In this document: one piece after another, positions 1,673-10,440 of the stretch
Position numbering within the stretch: the first letter of the stretch is position 1
How the letters are laid out: every line of letters starts with the position of its first letter
Source of the DNA: a bacterium
GTDB taxonomy: Bacteria; Hydrogenedentota; Hydrogenedentia; Hydrogenedentiales; SLHB01
Direction: 5' to 3'
Assembly: GCA_024231375.1 (NCBI GenBank)
Contig: JAAEQP010001879.1
Span: 1-10,440 of the forward strand
Length of the DNA: 10,440 nucleotides
Notes under the pieces: model-generated
The model's database searches: none
The model's input: only the letters and a program-made list of their open reading frames with translations
What the model was told of the DNA's origin: nothing
Position numbers and translations under genes: made by a program

Positions 1673-4408
1673 TCACTTTCGGTGGACAATGGCGGGTTCC
1701 GGCCTGGCGCGCAATTCTCTGGGCGCTGGTACTGGTTTGGGTGCGCGCACTATCTGAGGCTCCCTGAGTCCGTCCAGGCCAAGGCCGTCCCGCAACTCCT
1801 CCAGCCGAAGTTGCCGCGCCCAGGAGGCGACCCCCTCATTCGTCACGACGCCGCGCTCCGTTTCCCCGTTGCGCTCTCGCACCGAAGTCTTCGGCTCGAA
1901 CCGCCATTTAGCCAAGTCCGGTACACGGTCGAGGGCCCCCAGGATGGCGAGGGATTCCATGGCAAGATAGGTGCACTCTTCGTTGGGGTTGATGAGGATG
2001 TTGGACTCGCGCACGTCGGACTGGAACCTGCCGCGCCCCTGGTGAAATCGCATGATGCCTCTGGTGCATGCGAGTTGGTCGATTCGGTCCAGCGCGTCCA
2101 GCGTCTGAAGCGCCCACAAAGCGCCCCGCGTCATGCTCATGTCGCACCAGCCGAAATGGAACAGGCCGTCCGCCTTGGCCACGTCCACCGGTGCATACCC
2201 GTCCCGGAGGGGCCAACCCGGCTTGACCTGGTGCTCAACGATGTACGCCACGAGGCGGTCGCCATCGACGAAATCCAGACAATCGAATTCGCGGAGACAC
2301 GCCAGCCGCCAGGCAATGCGGTCCATCTCCACAAAGTGATAGTTCCCGCCCTGCGCCCTGACCTCGCCTCTGGAGGCGTCGTTCATCTTCTGGATTGCGT
2401 CGCTGCCAAGAGCTTCGAGCGCGGCACGCACGCTCTCTGGCGAGAACCCGATGTCGGCGAGTTCTTGCTTCGTCAGGACGCCGCTGGAAATGACGTTGTA
2501 GAGGGCGCGCGGTTGGCTCAACGCAGCGCGCACCCTCTCGGGTATGTTCTTTCTGTTGCCGTTGGTCAGATAACCCACCACGGCCGACTTGTATCTCTCA
2601 CCTACCTCCGGTCCGAAGAACGCCATCGGCGGATGCGCCTGGGCTCGTAGGAGGATCGAGAACTCGCCTCGACCTGATTCTGCCCACTCATCGATCTCGG
2701 CAAGCGCCATTTCGCGGGAGATCGTCCGCGGCCAATGCGGCTGTCTGCCTCCGGTGAACGCGCCGGTCGTCAGCATGACGGTCAGCATCACAACCGCCGC
2801 GCCGATGGCAAGAGCGCCTCGCACCTTATGTGCGCGGGATTCGGCGGGAGGCCGGACGAACACGGACGCGTCGCCCTCGGGCTGGAGGAGCGATTCCGCC
2901 TCGTCCGCCCGTCCGCCCAGGAAGAGACCGAGAGCGGTGGCGGCCACATCCGCGACCGCGTTCTCGAGGGCGGCGGGATCGACAACGTTGCTCTCGGAAA
3001 GCTTGCGCAGATCGCGAAGGTCCCGCGCGCCGAGCTGTGTCTCGCACTGCCCGTCGAAGTCGATTCGGATCCTCGAGTTGACCCCCGTCACTCCGAAGAA
3101 CTGAGTTGCACTCATCTTCACGGGCGGCAGGAACAGGACGACGCCCGTATTCGTGATGCGGTAGTCGCGCAGAAGGAAGCGGTCGCCCAAGTAACGGATG
3201 AATGCCAGGGCCTGGGTCTGCGTGACAGGTCTTGGCTCCACGTGTTCCGGAGCGCCCAGCAACCCCCGCGCCTGACGCAGAAACAAATTGTAGTCGTGCC
3301 GGATGGGCGCGGTCTTGTTGGTGTGATAGAGGGTGATGTTCAACACCAGCAGGGCCGCGAAGAAGGTCCAGAACGGCGCATGGCAGAACCCCATCAGCAC
3401 CGACACGACGAGAAACGTCGCGCTCGCAAGAACTTGCCCATAGGCGAAGGGCGAACGGTTGACGCGCAGAAAACGGGCCGTCTGCCATGTGCCGAACGCG
3501 CAGAGCGGTATCAGAAGCCTGAACAAGAACACCGGGCCGAGGCGAGCGGTCACCGTGATCGAAATCAAGAGGGTCGGGACGGTGACCAGGACGAGCGCAA
3601 CAACATTGCCGCGAATGACGGTCTTGCGGAAACCACGCCCCGTCCCTGGCGCGAGATTGTCGGCTTCCAGCTTCCCTAGCCACCCGTGGAAAGCAGCTGC
3701 GACCACCCCTTGAAACAGCCCAAACCAGAGGAGAAGCATCCATGGCACGGATAGCAGCGCGGCCACGGCCGTCGAAGAAGAACCACCCCCGACCGTAAGG
3801 GACGTAGCCGGCAGGAGCGCCATGACCCCGGTCTTGAATCCCTTGCGCGGTTCCAGGTCGGCAAGCGACGATTCGAGGCGCTCTTCCAGCTTCCCGCGCA
3901 GCACGGTTCGTGCCCGGTGCAGGCGGGTCTTCATAGCGGTTTCGGAAATGCCCAAGGCCGTGGAGGCTTCCCTGACGCTCTTGCCTTCAATGTAGAAGAG
4001 CACCAGGCATTCGCGATGGGTGGACGGCAAGGAGGACACGGTCCGCCGAAGCGTTTCGCTCAGGGATTTGGCCTCGTCACCTTCCGGAGCCACCTCCTCG
4101 GATGCGGGCTGTTCAAGCCGCCACCGTTCCCTTCGGGCCAGTTCGCGCTTGTGCCGACGCAACATTGACGTGCTGACGTTGCGCGCGATGCGCCCGAGCC
4201 AGGCGCCAAACTTTTCCGGGTTCCGCAACGCGCGCAGATAGCGGAACGCCTTCACAAACGTTTCCTGGGCGGCGTCTTCGCAGAGGGTGGCGTCGCCAAG
4301 CCGGCTCCAAGCGATCCCGTAAACCATGTTCTGGTAACGGTCTACCAGCTCGGAGTAGCGTTCCGTCTCGCCGTTTCGCACGGCCTCGATTACTGGGGCG
4401 TCGGACAT
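1673..4408 (-). CDS. ECF sigma factor fused to membrane segments and an alpha-toroid-like domain
   Basis: The product is 911 aa from the ATG at 4408. Residues about 8-80 are sigma region 2 (DAAQETFVKAF at 45-55, then NPEKFGAWLGRIARN at 63-77). Residues about 118-171 are region 4 with a helix-turn-helix (SVREASTALGISETAMKTRL). Ordinary ECF factors stop near here, at roughly 180-200 aa. This one continues with hydrophobic segments at about 214-240, 269-286, 292-308, 323-344, 346-360 and 532-551. A soluble stretch at about 362-531 matches nothing I recognise. A C-terminal region has three repeats (about 692-732, 754-795, 809-842) of the type WAL..L..LDRID, like prenyltransferase or terpene-cyclase toroids. 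A Pro/Arg-rich tail ends it. No HxxxCxxC zinc anti-sigma motif is seen. A membrane-bound sensor and sigma factor in one chain is inferred. Upstream in-frame starts at 4420 and 4468 exist, but the GGAGAGG at 4421-4427 favours 4408 (spacing 12 nt). Confidence 0.85.
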   Translation of the reverse strand: MSDAPVIEAVRNGETERYSELVDRYQNMVYGIAWSRLGDATLCEDAAQETFVKAFRYLRALRNPEKFGAWLGRIARNVSTSMLRRHKRELARRERWRLEQPASEEVAPEGDEAKSLSETLRRTVSSLPSTHRECLVLFYIEGKSVREASTALGISETAMKTRLHRARTVLRGKLEERLESSLADLEPRKGFKTGVMALLPATSLTVGGGSSSTAVAALLSVPWMLLLWFGLFQGVVAAAFHGWLGKLEADNLAPGTGRGFRKTVIRGNVVALVLVTVPTLLISITVTARLGPVFLFRLLIPLCAFGTWQTARFLRVNRSPFAYGQVLASATFLVVSVLMGFCHAPFWTFFAALLVLNITLYHTNKTAPIRHDYNLFLRQARGLLGAPEHVEPRPVTQTQALAFIRYLGDRFLLRDYRITNTGVVLFLPPVKMSATQFFGVTGVNSRIRIDFDGQCETQLGARDLRDLRKLSESNVVDPAALENAVADVAATALGLFLGGRADEAESLLQPEGDASVFVRPPAESRAHKVRGALAIGAAVVMLTVMLTTGAFTGGRQPHWPRTISREMALAEIDEWAESGRGEFSILLRAQAHPPMAFFGPEVGERYKSAVVGYLTNGNRKNIPERVRAALSQPRALYNVISSGVLTKQELADIGFSPESVRAALEALGSDAIQKMNDASRGEVRAQGGNYHFVEMDRIAWRLACLREFDCLDFVDGDRLVAYIVEHQVKPGWPLRDGYAPVDVAKADGLFHFGWCDMSMTRGALWALQTLDALDRIDQLACTRGIMRFHQGRGRFQSDVRESNILINPNEECTYLAMESLAILGALDRVPDLAKWRFEPKTSVRERNGETERGVVTNEGVASWARQLRLEELRDGLGLDGLREPQIVRAPKPVPAPRELRARPEPAIVHRK

Positions 4409-4420
4409 GAGTGTGTGCAT

Positions 4421-4427
4421 CCTCTCC
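4421..4427 (-). promoter_or_regulatory. Ribosome binding site of the sigma factor gene
   Basis: On the - strand GGAGAGG lies 12 nt before ATG 4408 and directly abuts the in-frame ATG at 4420. The zero spacing makes 4420 unlikely as the start. Twelve nt is slightly long but usable, and 4408 leaves the usual short leader before sigma region 2. Confidence 0.5.
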
Positions 4428-4453: not shown

Positions 4454-4479
4454 GACGCCACGAAGCACAGAAGGTTACA
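4454..4479 (-). promoter_or_regulatory. Candidate ECF-type promoter of the sigma factor gene
   Basis: On the - strand TGTAAC (4479-4474) is followed after exactly 16 nt by CGTC (4457-4454). This resembles the ECF promoter pattern with an AAC-containing -35 and a CGTC -10, as in TGAAAC-N16-CGTC. The expected start of transcription would be near 4447, giving a leader of about 40 nt before ATG 4408. ECF genes are often autoregulated, so the factor may recognise this site itself. The motif is short and was found by eye. Confidence 0.4.
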
Positions 4480-4561: not shown

Positions 4562-5626
4562 GTGTCATCGTTCGATTCGAAATCGCACAAGGGCCGGGGC
4601 GCGGGAGGCAACCCCGCGAACCGGTTTGACGAGATCGCCTACGAGGCGGACCCGGACTGGGACGCCCGCGACGAGCCGGGACCTCGGACGGTGTTTCTGA
4701 AAGACGCCACGAAGAAGGTCTTCAGCCGGAACGACAGTCCAGACATCCCTGCCGACACGACGTGCAATCCCTACCGGGGATGCGAGCACGGGTGCATCTA
4801 TTGCTACGCGCGACCCACCCACGAGTACCTTGGGTTCTCGGCCGGACTGGATTTCGAGACGCGCATCGTGGTGAAAGAGAACGCGCCCGCCCTTATTCGC
4901 AAGGAGTTTATGTCGCCCCGCTGGGACCCGCGGCCCGTGGCGTTCTCGGGCGTGACCGACCCGTATCAACCCATCGAGCGGCGGCTCCAACTGACGCGTC
5001 GATGCTTGCAGGTGTTCGCCGAGTTCCTGAATCCCGTGACCATCATCACCAAGAACCGGCTCATCGAACGTGACATCGACTTGCTGCGTCATTTGGCCGA
5101 CTACCAGGCGGTTTCGACGGCGGTGACCATGACCACGCTCGACAAAGGCTTGAACCGCATCCTCGAACCGCGTTCGTCGTTGCCGCGGCAACGGCTGGAA
5201 ACGATCGCGCGGTTGGCCGAGGCAGGCATTCCCGTGGCCGTGCTGGTGGCGCCCGTGATTCCAGGATTGAACGACGAGGAGATCCCTGCGTTGTTGAAAG
5301 CGGCGGCCGATGCGGGTGCGCGGAGCGCGGGAACTGAGGTACTGCGGTTGCCCCACGCGGTCGCGCCGTTGTTCGAAGACTGGCTCGAACGCCACATGCC
5401 TGACCGGAAGAGCAAGATTCTGAACCGTATCCGCGCCATGCGTGGCGGGAAGCTCAACGATTCCCGGTTCGGCTCGCGAATGTCGGGGGAGGGGTTATTC
5501 GCCGAACAGATAGCCAACCTGTTCGTGGTGGCGGCCCGCAAGTACGGGATCGACCAGCCTGACGCGCCATTGTCCGCGGAATCGTTCCGTCGGCCTGGGG
5601 GACGGCAGCTCTCGCTGTTCGACTGA
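4562..5626 (+). CDS. PA0069-family radical SAM protein (spore photoproduct lyase superfamily)
   Basis: The product is 354 aa from GTG 4562. The radical SAM motif CxxxCxxC is clear at C74, C78 and C81 (RGCEHGCIYCYAR), and should bind a [4Fe-4S] cluster and S-adenosylmethionine. Other blocks match PA0069-family proteins as I know them: KGRGAGGNPANRF near the start, FSRNDSPDIP (54-63), TDPYQPIERR (132-141), LVAPVIPGLND (228-238), MRGGKLNDSRFG (293-304) and a C-terminal QLSLFD. The length is usual for the family. The substrate is unknown. The relationship to spore photoproduct lyase suggests nucleic-acid chemistry, but this is only an analogy. An ATG at 4415 is in frame but lies before the promoter candidate, and its first 49 residues look non-conserved. 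The gene is divergent from the sigma factor gene and convergent with the peptidase gene, so it is probably transcribed alone. Confidence 0.92.
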   Translation: MSSFDSKSHKGRGAGGNPANRFDEIAYEADPDWDARDEPGPRTVFLKDATKKVFSRNDSPDIPADTTCNPYRGCEHGCIYCYARPTHEYLGFSAGLDFETRIVVKENAPALIRKEFMSPRWDPRPVAFSGVTDPYQPIERRLQLTRRCLQVFAEFLNPVTIITKNRLIERDIDLLRHLADYQAVSTAVTMTTLDKGLNRILEPRSSLPRQRLETIARLAEAGIPVAVLVAPVIPGLNDEEIPALLKAAADAGARSAGTEVLRLPHAVAPLFEDWLERHMPDRKSKILNRIRAMRGGKLNDSRFGSRMSGEGLFAEQIANLFVVAARKYGIDQPDAPLSAESFRRPGGRQLSLFD

Positions 5627-5733: not shown

Positions 5734-6918
5734 TCAATCGGCCAGATACCGCCGCAACGCCGTGGCCAGGTCCACCCCAAAGGCACGGGCGCGGTCCGGC
5801 GTGACCGTTGCGCCGCCCGCGTTGGCATAGGCGATCTCGATGGTGCTCGCCAGGCGCACGCCCTCCTGTTCCCCCATCCACGCACTGGACGACTTCCCTG
5901 CCGCGTAGTTCTCGGACGTGTTCCACTCCTTGCCGAAGGGCAGGTTGTCGGCCGCCGCGTAAGGCAGTGAATCACTGACGACGTCTTCCAGGATCGCGCC
6001 GAACCGCATCTGCTCGGCCCAGATAGCCTCGTTCCGGCTACCCACCAGGTAGACCGTCTCGTTGCGGCCGCCGCGAATGTAGGGGCAATGCAGGTCCAGC
6101 CCCACCCGCAACTTGCCATCCGACCAACCTGGTACGAATGCGCGCAGAGCCGCCGTCGATGCGTAGATGCTGTCCCCAGCATAGTCGCGGTTGTGGTCGT
6201 GGGGTTTGCGGTTCTTGCCTTGGTCCCCGTCCTCCACGCCATCCTTGTCCATGAACGGCACGGCCAGCACCTCCACGTGGTCGCGGAACCACGCGCCGTC
6301 GTCCGTGTCGGCCAGAATCGTCGTCAGCATGCCCTCCAGCGTGTAGCTGGCCATGGACTCGCAGGCATGGTGCCGGCACGTGAGCAACACGCGGTATTCA
6401 GGGTCGCCATCCAGCTTGCCCACGCGAACGCGTTCCACGGCACGGCCCTTGCCCGTCGCTGCGAGTGTCTCGACGGCCACGTTCGGGTTGCCGGACAGCC
6501 CCGCCGCGAACCCGCGCCAATCCTCTTCCAGATAGGGAATGGCAAACGCGAACCGGACCGCGTCGGCATCCGCCGCGAAGGCGTACGTGAAGGTCACGCC
6601 CTTCTCGACGGCTTCGACCGCGTCCATCCCCAGCCAGGTCCACGTGTGGCCATCGTCCACACTGACCGCGGGCCCGCGCGTGCCCATGACGTTCCGGTTC
6701 GTGAAGTGGAACGTCAGCGTTCGCCCCGCCGCGCCCCGCACCCGGAAGTTCCAGTAGAACCACCACCCTTCCGTATCCCGTAGATCCTGATGGAGGTAGA
6801 CCGTGTCGCCCTCCATGCGCTCAGACACGACGTTCCCACCCGGATAGTCGCAATCGATAACAGGACCGGACGGGGCCGCATGCAGGTGTACGAGGGCTGC
6901 GATCATCACACTGGCCAT
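5734..6918 (-). CDS. Secreted M14 metallocarboxypeptidase, cytosolic-carboxypeptidase-like branch
   Basis: The product is 394 aa. A hydrophobic N-terminus (MASVMIAALVHLHAAPSGP) suggests a short signal peptide ending near residue 15-19, although a positive n-region is lacking. Residues about 25-135 form a beta-rich domain with WFYWNFRVRGAAGRTLTF (53-70) and DDGHTWTWLG. This matches the N-domain that precedes the catalytic domain in CCP/AGBL-type M14 enzymes. The catalytic part has the zinc motif HxxE at H184-E187, NRDY at 243-246, the third zinc ligand at H277 (DLHCPY) and a likely catalytic glutamate at E361 (STIEIAY). It should remove C-terminal residues from peptides or proteins outside the cytoplasm; the specificity is not readable here. 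The start at ATG 6918 has GGGGAG 10 nt upstream. The nearest gene on the same strand ends 352 bp upstream, so its own promoter is likely. Confidence 0.85.
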   Translation of the reverse strand: MASVMIAALVHLHAAPSGPVIDCDYPGGNVVSERMEGDTVYLHQDLRDTEGWWFYWNFRVRGAAGRTLTFHFTNRNVMGTRGPAVSVDDGHTWTWLGMDAVEAVEKGVTFTYAFAADADAVRFAFAIPYLEEDWRGFAAGLSGNPNVAVETLAATGKGRAVERVRVGKLDGDPEYRVLLTCRHHACESMASYTLEGMLTTILADTDDGAWFRDHVEVLAVPFMDKDGVEDGDQGKNRKPHDHNRDYAGDSIYASTAALRAFVPGWSDGKLRVGLDLHCPYIRGGRNETVYLVGSRNEAIWAEQMRFGAILEDVVSDSLPYAAADNLPFGKEWNTSENYAAGKSSSAWMGEQEGVRLASTIEIAYANAGGATVTPDRARAFGVDLATALRRYLAD

Positions 6919-7270: not shown

Positions 7271-10200
7271 TCAATACAACACGAAGGCCTGCACGGCCGT
7301 CGGACCCAGCACCAGCGAACGGTCGAACGATGTGGACGCCTTGTCCATGGATTCGCGGCCGCCTTCGCGGACGAGGTCGATGGCGATCTCGGGACCGGCG
7401 AGCCCGTACTCCTTGGTGTCGCAATGCCACGTGAATTCGATGGACTCATCGGTCGAATTGGCGAAGATGAAGGCAACCGCACCCGATTCGGCCTGCCAAG
7501 CGGCGCATTGTAGCGCGGAATCCGTGACGGGCCAATCGCCGCTCCATGCCCAGTTGGCCGTGACTTCGGGGATGTCTCCGGAGACGCGCGGGGGACGCGC
7601 CATCTGGCCGCGGGCCAGGTGGTCGATCAAGTGGCTTCGGATGCGCGCGCATCGGCGGATGTAGGCGGCCGCCTTGGGTTGCGTGTCGATCAGTTCCACG
7701 CCGCACCACCCGAGTTGCTCGCCGAACACCAATGCTTGGGCGGTCTTCATGCGGTGGGCCAGCAGGTCTTTCCCTTTGTAGGCGCGTCCGAACAACTGCA
7801 CCTTGCCGCCGTAGACGGCTGCGGCGGCGGGCACGGCGTTCTGGTATTGAAAATGCCACGTAAGGTAGCCGTCGAAGACGTGGAGGAAGGGTTCCGCATT
7901 GCATTCGGTGGTCAGCATCTTGTCGGGGTACTTCTCGGCCATGGTCGCTTGCAGTGCGGTCAGCATGGGCCAGTACCCGTCGCGCGTCCACCAGTGCCCG
8001 CCGGCGAGCGGATGGCCGTGGGACGCGTCGTAGCACAGAACCGGCGCGGCCGCGGCCACCTGATCGATGTAGACTCCGTCCACGTTGCATTCGGGTCCCA
8101 CTAGGCGCAACACGATCTCGTGCATTTTGTCGTGCCACACTTTCTGCGTGGGGCACATGGGCGCCAGGTCCTGAGGATTGCTGCCATAATGCTCGATGTA
8201 GGGTTTGCCGTCGCGCTGTTTGGTAACGCCGGGCAAGGCCACGGTCTCGAAGTCGTCGGTGTCGGAATCCCAGAGCCGTCCGTTGATGTAGGGCATCACG
8301 CGGACGCCCGCGGCCTGCATGTCGGCGACGCCTTTGGCGAACTCCGGCTTCGCGGGGAAGTAGTGGGGATAGTCGTTGTCGAAAGGAATCTCGTGCCACG
8401 AGTACCAGTGGACGGCTGTCGGCACTCCCATGAAATCGGCGTACTTCTTCACCAGACCCACGGCTTGCTGGCGGGTGCCGCTGCACAACCCCCAAACACA
8501 GACTTCTTCCATCCAGTCCGGCGTGTCGGACCGGCCCCAAGACCCTCGTTCGGGCCACCACTCCGCCTCAGCTTCGACCCAGGCGCGGTATCTTTGGGCG
8601 GCGTCGAACCAGTCCCCGTGGAGCGGCTCCACATGCACCCAACCGGGATGGCTGAAATCGTTCCCCGGCACGGTGGCGTCGGGTGCGGGCCATTCGATGG
8701 AGGCTTCCGCGGCGGCGCCGTTGGCGACCAACCCTGCGCGGAGGGTCTTGGTCGAGGCGTAGGGGTCGTGGGAGGCCACGTAGACGCCGCAATCGGGGTC
8801 GTAACAGGCGAGATAGGGCAACGATCCCCACCCGCTCGGGTAGCTGGCGTTGCACGACACGCCTTTGAGCAACGGCTGCGGCGCCAACGCACCGGCCACG
8901 GTAGGCACGAAGAAGGTGTCGTCCTCGGCGCTATCGCCCAAGGCGCCGATGGCGACACGCGGGAAGGCCACGCGCAATATCGACACGGTGTCGGAGTCGT
9001 TCGCGATGGACAGACGCAACGCGCCGTCCTGTGCAACGACCGTTGCCGTGAGTCCAGCAGCCTCCTGTTCGCCGACCCAGACGATTTGCGCGGGTTCGAG
9101 GTCCGCCTTGAGCGACGCCGTGAACGGCCCCTCGCGGTTGTCCCAATGATACGCGGTGCCGTCCGTGGATTCGGCTTCAATACTCCACAGGGGCCACGCG
9201 ATGCCGGACACGAGTTCGCGCCCCTTCTTCGAGTCATAGACGCTGGCCAGTGAGCATCCGTCTTCGGTCGAACCCCACATGCGGATGACGCCGTCTACCG
9301 ACATGGAAGCGTATCCGCCGCCCGCGAGCGTACATACGCGTTCAAGAATGCCGCCCACGTCCGGCGGGGATTCCAGGGCCACGCCCAACTCCTGAAGCGC
9401 CGCCTGCCCCTCGCGCAGATGGCCGGGCCCGAGCAGGCTGCGTTCGATACACGACAGCCACCAGCCGAACGGGCTCGCGCCCGCGGCCTTGACCCCGGTC
9501 CGGACATGGGTGAGCGCCTTCTCCACGGCGGGTGTGCTCAGGGCCACCTGGGCGCCCGCCGTCCGTGCCGCCGCAAACGCCTCCAGCCGGTCCAGCGTGT
9601 CAGGCCGCGAATCGGCCCAGAACGTGCAGGCAACGTCGTATCGTGTGGAATCCCATGACGTCCATGGACCGTGGATGTAGCTGCCGTAAGCGCCTGATCC
9701 GGAATAGAACTTCACCTGGTTCGTCACCAAGCCCAGCACGTTGGCGCCATCGGTTACAGCGCCCCACTTGGCCGTGTTGGCGGATTGGTTGTCCGTGTCG
9801 AAGGCGCCGGACTGGCGTGGCATGCTGCCGGTCCAGGTGGGCAGGGGACGTCCATTGAACTGCCACTGAAGCAGATGGTGCTCGCTCCAAGACGCAGGCG
9901 TCGCCTGTTCACACCGGGCCGTGACTTCCACGGCTGGCGAGCCGACGCGGTAGGCGAATCGGTACACGGCCTGGGGTTGTGACGCTGGCCAATTCTCGCC
10001 CTCGACGTACCGGGCGCGCGCTTCGACCACGATCTCCAGGGGGCCTTTCCGCACCGCCTTGACGGAGGCCTTTCGGTCGTTGCGCAGAAAGAACTGGCCG
10101 CGGTCCTTGTCGTAGAGGCGGTCAAACATGTCGAACCCGTCAAAGGTCTTGCCCGATGCGAGGAAGGTGATGCGCGATGGCAGACCACCCTCGGCGGCGG

Positions 10201-10440
10201 GATCGTGGACGATCTCGGCGAATCCGTTGTTCACGATGACGCGGCCGTCCTCGCGGCGGAGTGTGAGTGGGGGCAAGGCGTCCAGAAAGGTTGTGGCATC
10301 GCCGGGCGGCGGGATGTGCAGACCATAGAGCTGCACGCGTCCTTTGCGGACGCCTTCGGGCAGGAGCAACACGGCGTCCGTGCGGTCGCCGTCGACGGTC
10401 ATCTGGGCGACGAGGGGTTGAAGAATGCCGTTCACTTCGA
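7271..10440 (-). CDS. Large DUF6259/glycoside-hydrolase-like TIM-barrel protein, N-terminus cut off
   Basis: At least 1,055 codons are present and the frame is still open at the right edge (a GAA codon precedes the GTG at 10435), so the true start lies outside. Residues are counted from that GTG. The N-terminal half (about 60-600) looks like beta-sandwich domains of the type that precede the barrel in large glycosidases. Residues about 638-950 resemble the DUF6259 glycosidase-like TIM barrel: AVHWYSWHEIPFDNDYP (674-690), GVRVMPYINGRLW (710-722), VDGVYIDQ (785-792) and LTTECNAEP (841-849). By analogy with retaining glycosidases of the GH36/GH101 type, D791 could be the nucleophile and E844 the acid/base. 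The C-terminal part (about 960-1054) is a beta-rich domain ending in VLGPTAVQAFVLY. No substrate can be read from the sequence. A signal peptide, if any, is outside the window. The gene is followed by repeat DNA and, 352 bp on, by the peptidase gene. Confidence 0.75.
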   Translation of the reverse strand, partial: EVNGILQPLVAQMTVDGDRTDAVLLLPEGVRKGRVQLYGLHIPPPGDATTFLDALPPLTLRREDGRVIVNNGFAEIVHDPAAEGGLPSRITFLASGKTFDGFDMFDRLYDKDRGQFFLRNDRKASVKAVRKGPLEIVVEARARYVEGENWPASQPQAVYRFAYRVGSPAVEVTARCEQATPASWSEHHLLQWQFNGRPLPTWTGSMPRQSGAFDTDNQSANTAKWGAVTDGANVLGLVTNQVKFYSGSGAYGSYIHGPWTSWDSTRYDVACTFWADSRPDTLDRLEAFAAARTAGAQVALSTPAVEKALTHVRTGVKAAGASPFGWWLSCIERSLLGPGHLREGQAALQELGVALESPPDVGGILERVCTLAGGGYASMSVDGVIRMWGSTEDGCSLASVYDSKKGRELVSGIAWPLWSIEAESTDGTAYHWDNREGPFTASLKADLEPAQIVWVGEQEAAGLTATVVAQDGALRLSIANDSDTVSILRVAFPRVAIGALGDSAEDDTFFVPTVAGALAPQPLLKGVSCNASYPSGWGSLPYLACYDPDCGVYVASHDPYASTKTLRAGLVANGAAAEASIEWPAPDATVPGNDFSHPGWVHVEPLHGDWFDAAQRYRAWVEAEAEWWPERGSWGRSDTPDWMEEVCVWGLCSGTRQQAVGLVKKYADFMGVPTAVHWYSWHEIPFDNDYPHYFPAKPEFAKGVADMQAAGVRVMPYINGRLWDSDTDDFETVALPGVTKQRDGKPYIEHYGSNPQDLAPMCPTQKVWHDKMHEIVLRLVGPECNVDGVYIDQVAAAAPVLCYDASHGHPLAGGHWWTRDGYWPMLTALQATMAEKYPDKMLTTECNAEPFLHVFDGYLTWHFQYQNAVPAAAAVYGGKVQLFGRAYKGKDLLAHRMKTAQALVFGEQLGWCGVELIDTQPKAAAYIRRCARIRSHLIDHLARGQMARPPRVSGDIPEVTANWAWSGDWPVTDSALQCAAWQAESGAVAFIFANSTDESIEFTWHCDTKEYGLAGPEIAIDLVREGGRESMDKASTSFDRSLVLGPTAVQAFVLY

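Follow-up and report, generated by a model that had tools for sequence, protein, structure and literature searches.

The sigma protein and its family

The stretch of DNA analysed here (the window) comprises 10,440 nucleotides, positions 1 to 10,440 of contig JAAEQP010001879.1 from a bacterium of the Hydrogenedentota, and our subject is a gene on its reverse strand (1673..4408, -) whose product joins an extracytoplasmic function (ECF) sigma factor to a long extension. The coding sequence specifies 911 amino acids plus a stop; its ATG at 4408 agrees with the starts in the family described below, and a probable ribosome-binding site, GGAGAGG, is present in the sequence at 4421..4427 (-). Sigma-70 region 2 covers residues 21-88 (4145..4348, -; Pfam E 1.5e-15) and region 4 (r4_2) residues 118-168 (3905..4057, -; Pfam E 4.7e-13), and the gap of 29 residues between them gives no Pfam match to region 3 at E up to 1. 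With regions 2 and 4 present and region 3 not matched, the protein has the make-up of an ECF (group 4) factor. The NCBIfam model TIGR02937 scores 79.4 bits against a cut-off of 42.9; among the 25 listed of 98 NCBIfam matches, all to sigma models, it is the only one above its cut-off. The first-pass annotation had read an intact ECF sigma factor at this place, and the Pfam and TIGR02937 matches bear this out.

That annotation had also noted about 740 extra residues with some six hydrophobic segments, and both hydropathy and a structure model agree. The model, built with an alignment of 34 proteins, has a mean pLDDT of 84.2 and a pTM of 0.49; it can be relied on for each domain taken singly but not for how the domains are arranged relative to one another. 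Following the sigma part is a semi-hydrophobic linker seen by hydropathy, S0 (residues 191-212; 3773..3838, -), and residues 203-220, which lead up to helix 1, have a pLDDT below 50. Met196 within S0 (3821-3823, -) is near-invariant (90% or more of a 134-protein set); it could be a possible internal start, or its conservation could be due to chance. According to the model and hydropathy, a five-helix membrane bundle (residues 221-366; 3311..3748, -) comes next, with helices at 221-250, 258-290, 292-316, 320-341 and 347-366. It is followed by an alpha/beta middle domain in the model (residues 367-524; 2837..3310, -), predicted to be cytoplasmic, a sixth membrane helix supported by hydropathy and the model (residues 525-553; 2750..2836, -), and an alpha/alpha toroid resembling protein prenyltransferase beta subunits (residues 559-879; 1772..2734, -), which is predicted to lie outside the cytoplasm. 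The C-terminal tail (residues 882-911; 1676..1765, -) has a pLDDT below 50. The toroid-like domain proposed earlier is present; it is now refined to a prenyltransferase-like and probably extracytoplasmic domain, and the alpha/beta domain between the helices is an addition. When folded alone (residues 363-526, 121 alignment rows), the middle domain reached a pLDDT of 82.4 and a pTM of 0.78, and no confident structural relative of it was found in the PDB. Alignment column counts place a D-Y-N/S-L-F motif at its residues 372-376, and D372 and R378 are invariant in the 134 proteins and reach 1.00 (rounded) in 169.

Searches with only the part after the sigma regions, a check proposed in the first-pass annotation, revealed a large family: 36 proteins with the window protein as query, 192 (best 120 listed) with a second member and 91 with a third, each search having scored only the approximately 8000 candidates that shared most words. 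The resulting set contains 196 fetched proteins, including the window protein. Its named sources are Hydrogenedentes/Hydrogenedentota (P0013, P0015 and P0016) and Verrucomicrobia or groups within them (P0089, P0169, P0171, P0182, P0187 and P0195); the source of P0020 is named only 'bacterium'. By identity, the nearest partial relative of the window protein is P0016 from Candidatus Hydrogenedentes (68% over 44%). Of the 196 proteins, 169 have 880-1000 amino acids, and in each of these the alignment to the sigma part exceeds 120 residues; 26 proteins are shorter and one is longer. The median pairwise identity in the family alignment falls from 73% in the sigma part to 45% in the toroid, 39% in the middle domain and 26% in the bundle.

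These data show that, throughout a large family, a single chain contains the intact ECF sigma factor, the polytopic membrane module and the toroid of prenyltransferase type. The joined layout noticed earlier, with sensor-like domain, anchor and sigma factor in a single polypeptide, is therefore real. A frameshift or assembly error that joined two genes, which had been named as what would overturn it, is contradicted by the occurrence of the same layout in 169 of 196 proteins, the window protein included, and we regard its probability as negligible. For twelve of the 196 proteins the precomputed Pfam column lists no sigma match. Their starts range from the sigma tail (P0129) through S0 and the helices to the middle domain, and six of them are on contigs too short for a judgement. 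Four proteins (P0124, P0191, P0192 and P0196) end early and, from their sequences, look broken rather than naturally toroid-free.

A contig scan with the single window sequence gave 11 loci, all matching the sigma part only, and the two loci on viral contigs did likewise. In 199 genomes of one phylum, 189 matched, and among the matches listed none extended past query residue 236; among plasmids, 500 records matched, none over more than 80% of the query, and the ten listed matches end by query residue 200. In the phylum of the 199 genomes, L024 and places in G068, G082 and G024 have ECF matches in open frames of 541-667 amino acids, and there may be other long-tailed ECF factors in this phylum.

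One module shared by two sigma classes

Sigma parts of two classes occur in the family. In seven of the 169 proteins (P0032, P0130, P0159, P0165, P0166, P0178 and P0182) the sigma part is nearer to that of P0130 than to that of P0027, with 50-67% identity to P0130 (P0130 itself excluded) versus 30-38% to P0027; the shortened P0191 carries the same sigma motif as this second class. A tree was made from 59 chosen extensions, all seven of the second class and 52 others, with the sigma part and S0 left out. On this tree the second class needs three changes, of which at least two are required by the starred branches; 500 shuffles never gave so low a number. The tree is of a quick kind; its long-branch warning (P0025 with the P0001 group, P0194 and P0195) lies away from the exchanges, and its composition flags fall on P0032 and P0195.

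The pair P0130 and P0089 locates the junction. By their modules these proteins are sisters (support 90). In windows of 40 columns they share 17-45% identity as long as the window starts no later than residue 202, and 55-80% in the 13 listed windows from residue 220 on. The breakpoint is at about residues 202-220, where the linker that joins S0 to helix 1 has low model confidence. The module has been transferred at one junction from one ECF sigma class to another, and the exchange of the sigma part at a single joint speaks for a module that behaves as a unit and has the sigma factor as its target of control.

Topology, toroid and gene surroundings

For the topology, the model of the window protein defined the loops, and the alignment transferred them to its relatives. 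Loops 244-265, 311-323, 363-378 and 516-530 hold a mean of 14.2 Lys and Arg residues versus 3.1 on the opposite loops, and the first set is the more positive in 169 of 169 proteins; in the 134-protein set the loop charge is 0.22 versus 0.09 per residue, again with the first set larger in every protein (134/134). By the positive-inside rule, these sequences support a cytoplasmic location of those loops and of the middle domain, with the toroid outside. Since the sigma factor must be cytoplasmic and loop 244-265 would also be inside, the number of crossings before residue 244 would be even, and S0 and helix 1 probably form a hairpin. On an approximate dG-like scale, the six helices have group medians from -1.3 to 1.2 and the three soluble controls from 3.8 to 7.0; the medians of S0 fall in between. 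The end of S0 is A-x-A-like in 110 of the 112 rows from P0026 onward, of which the named ones are verrucomicrobial, and exactly SAKA in 77 of them; in the remaining rows an A-x-A-like stretch occurs in 11 of 22. This end resembles a signal-peptidase site, a likeness that, with so many small residues, may be meaningless.

The alpha/alpha toroid fold of protein prenyltransferase beta subunits is present over residues 559-879, and the family profile has detectable sequence kinship to these subunits. PF00432 gives 11.5 bits on the window protein against a cut-off of 26.5; among nine relatives, P0131 (33.4 bits) and P0138 (29.6 bits) are above the cut-off, four match below it, and three have no match at E up to 0.1. 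The beta subunits concerned are those of RabGGTase, FTase and GGTase-I. The zinc ligands of these subunits are a D-x-C and a later H. As a sequence pattern, D-x-C occurs in only 13 of 169 proteins, at most eight of them in one column, and none of 134 proteins has a Cys two positions after D812. Unlike these enzymes, therefore, the toroid is apparently without a conserved zinc D-x-C site, and it is joined to a membrane protein and a sigma factor. In view of these counts, it is highly improbable that the toroid is an active prenyltransferase. Known enzymes with this fold bind isoprenoids, which makes an envelope lipid a reasonable first guess for the ligand.

Upstream of the gene, an ECF-promoter-like sequence, GTAAC-N16-CGTC, lies at 4454..4478 (-), 45 bases before the ATG; AAC and CGT are the hallmark of ECF promoters according to passages of PMC8103513. 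For the exact pattern, the expectation is 0.26 occurrences in the window, and 42 of 200 shuffles contained at least one; a looser pattern has eight matches in the window and is present in 4.3% of 150-base stretches. The site hints at possible autoregulation. None of the other four predicted genes of the window matches an anti-sigma factor, and the neighbour genes suggest no partner for the sigma protein. The gene divergent from it (4565-5623, +) encodes a PA0069 family radical SAM protein (NCBIfam, 460 bits versus a cut-off of 360). The product of 5737-6918 (-) has an M14 zinc carboxypeptidase match over residues 147-245, barely above the cut-off (E 6e-5), behind a weak cytosolic-carboxypeptidase N-terminal domain, and 7274-10435 (-), which reaches the contig end, encodes a protein of 1054 amino acids with a strong DUF6259 match (E 7.4e-85). 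A PD40-like protein is also among the neighbours (Pfam). In the gap downstream of the sigma gene (1549-1589, +), the near-identical 12-base units CGGGACTGTACC and CGGGACTGTCCC lie 29 bases apart and may be a dispersed repeat.

Relation to known systems and possible mode of action

As a rule, an ECF sigma factor relies on an anti-sigma partner that is a separate protein. ECF factors that carry a membrane extension form a known kind. Passages of PMC8999054 describe the actinobacterial groups ECF48, ECF52 and ECF53 (SCO4117 of Streptomyces coelicolor), whose C-terminal membrane extension of up to 400 residues contains one or two helices and an anti-sigma part of the zinc-finger type, and for which proteolytic activation is expected. 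Like them, the window protein has sigma factor and C-terminal membrane extension in one chain. Compared by these described features, however, it differs in its six helices, its approximately 740 extra residues and its toroid, and HxxxCxxC occurs in none of the 169 family proteins, in agreement with the earlier remark that no zinc anti-sigma motif was visible. According to the same source, the sigma factor of IutY (ECF243) of Pseudomonas putida is joined to a membrane anti-sigma part, from which cleavage by Prc and RseP releases it, and WD40-like repeats are present in the extension of some ECF57 members (PMC8999054). A large C-terminal repeat-type extension is common to the window protein and some members of ECF57 and other planctomycete ECF factors, but the window protein gives no Pfam match to WD40 at E up to 1 and has a prenyltransferase-type toroid instead. 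IutY belongs to a cell-surface siderophore system, and the anti-sigma domain fused to it is FecR-like. In the window protein, by contrast, no anti-sigma domain, FecR-like included, is matched by Pfam after the sigma regions at E up to 1, and only the weak toroid match is found there. We found no described ECF group with this architecture in the literature searched, which did not cover the main classification (Casas-Pastor et al. 2021). What is new here is the larger number of helices, the absence of a zinc anti-sigma motif, the prenyltransferase-type toroid, and a module common to two sigma classes.

On balance, we consider it somewhat probable that the window protein is a one-protein ECF signalling system. 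The membrane tether itself would hold the sigma factor off promoters. The toroid, no longer acting as a zinc-dependent prenyltransferase, would sense an envelope signal, which would pass through helix 6, the alpha/beta domain and the five-helix bundle to the linker. Most likely, by analogy with IutY and ECF48, ECF52 and ECF53, the sigma factor would then be freed by cleavage in or near S0 and would transcribe its own gene among others. Several points weigh against this proposal. The protease, the cleavage product and the ligand are hypothetical; the model, with its pTM of 0.49, leaves the domain placement unfixed; the tree behind the exchanges is of the quick kind, and the second-class row P0032 is flagged for odd composition; and the promoter pattern was first noticed by eye and chosen after seeing the sequence. 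In addition, six sigma-less proteins (P0054, P0146, P0153, P0180, P0181 and P0186) have contigs that extend beyond the gene, and may represent split systems, or genes that are broken or frameshifted. Finally, S0 is a weak membrane segment, with group medians of 3.5 and 2.1; in the window protein it scores 3.1, with helix 3 at 2.0 and one soluble control at 2.4, so that the parity of the crossings is not secured.

This weakness of S0, together with the even number of clear helices and the need for the sigma factor to be inside, would suit six plain crossings, with the alpha/beta domain outside and the toroid in the cytoplasm, where it would serve for binding or as a scaffold; however, the strongly positive loops would then sit outside in 169 of 169 proteins, and we hold this arrangement to be rather improbable. 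It is also conceivable that the sigma factor is never cut. In the manner of CadC and ToxR, which are membrane-bound one-component regulators, a flexible linker could let the sigma factor recruit RNA polymerase to promoters from the membrane, the sensor only altering its exposure. The low-confidence and presumably flexible residues 203-220, the lack of the zinc anti-sigma motif throughout the 169 proteins and the lack of a recognised partner gene beside the sigma gene speak for this possibility, to which we assign a minor but appreciable likelihood; against it, release by proteolysis is the assumed fate of those fused membrane ECF factors that have been examined, with IutY as the demonstrated case and ECF48, 52 and 53 as cases where it is expected (PMC8999054). 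A slightly smaller chance is given to the middle domain being a built-in anti-sigma of a new type that clamps the sigma factor and releases it by a conformational change without cleavage. One middle domain would then have to serve two ECF classes that are only about 30-38% identical, and the model does not confidently place it against the sigma part.

Returning to the one-protein signalling system, a more specific and, taken as a whole, unlikely form of it is that a portable module, found in Hydrogenedentes and Verrucomicrobiota, makes any ECF sigma factor joined to its front membrane-held and signal-controlled without an anti-sigma of a known kind. Its extracytoplasmic pseudo-prenyltransferase toroid would sense an isoprenoid envelope lipid, such as the undecaprenyl carrier, and the sigma factor would be cut free at the shared S0. 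If this is true, it would constitute an envelope-stress pathway in a single polypeptide whose lipid-reading sensor stems from an enzyme fold. A toroid of the prenyltransferase type that apparently lacks the zinc site and lies outside the cytoplasm would represent a novel type of sensor domain. Furthermore, the exchange of the sigma factor while the module was kept allows a direct test of whether tethering alone can control a sigma factor, and the family would supply a ready-made module for fusion to other sigma factors.
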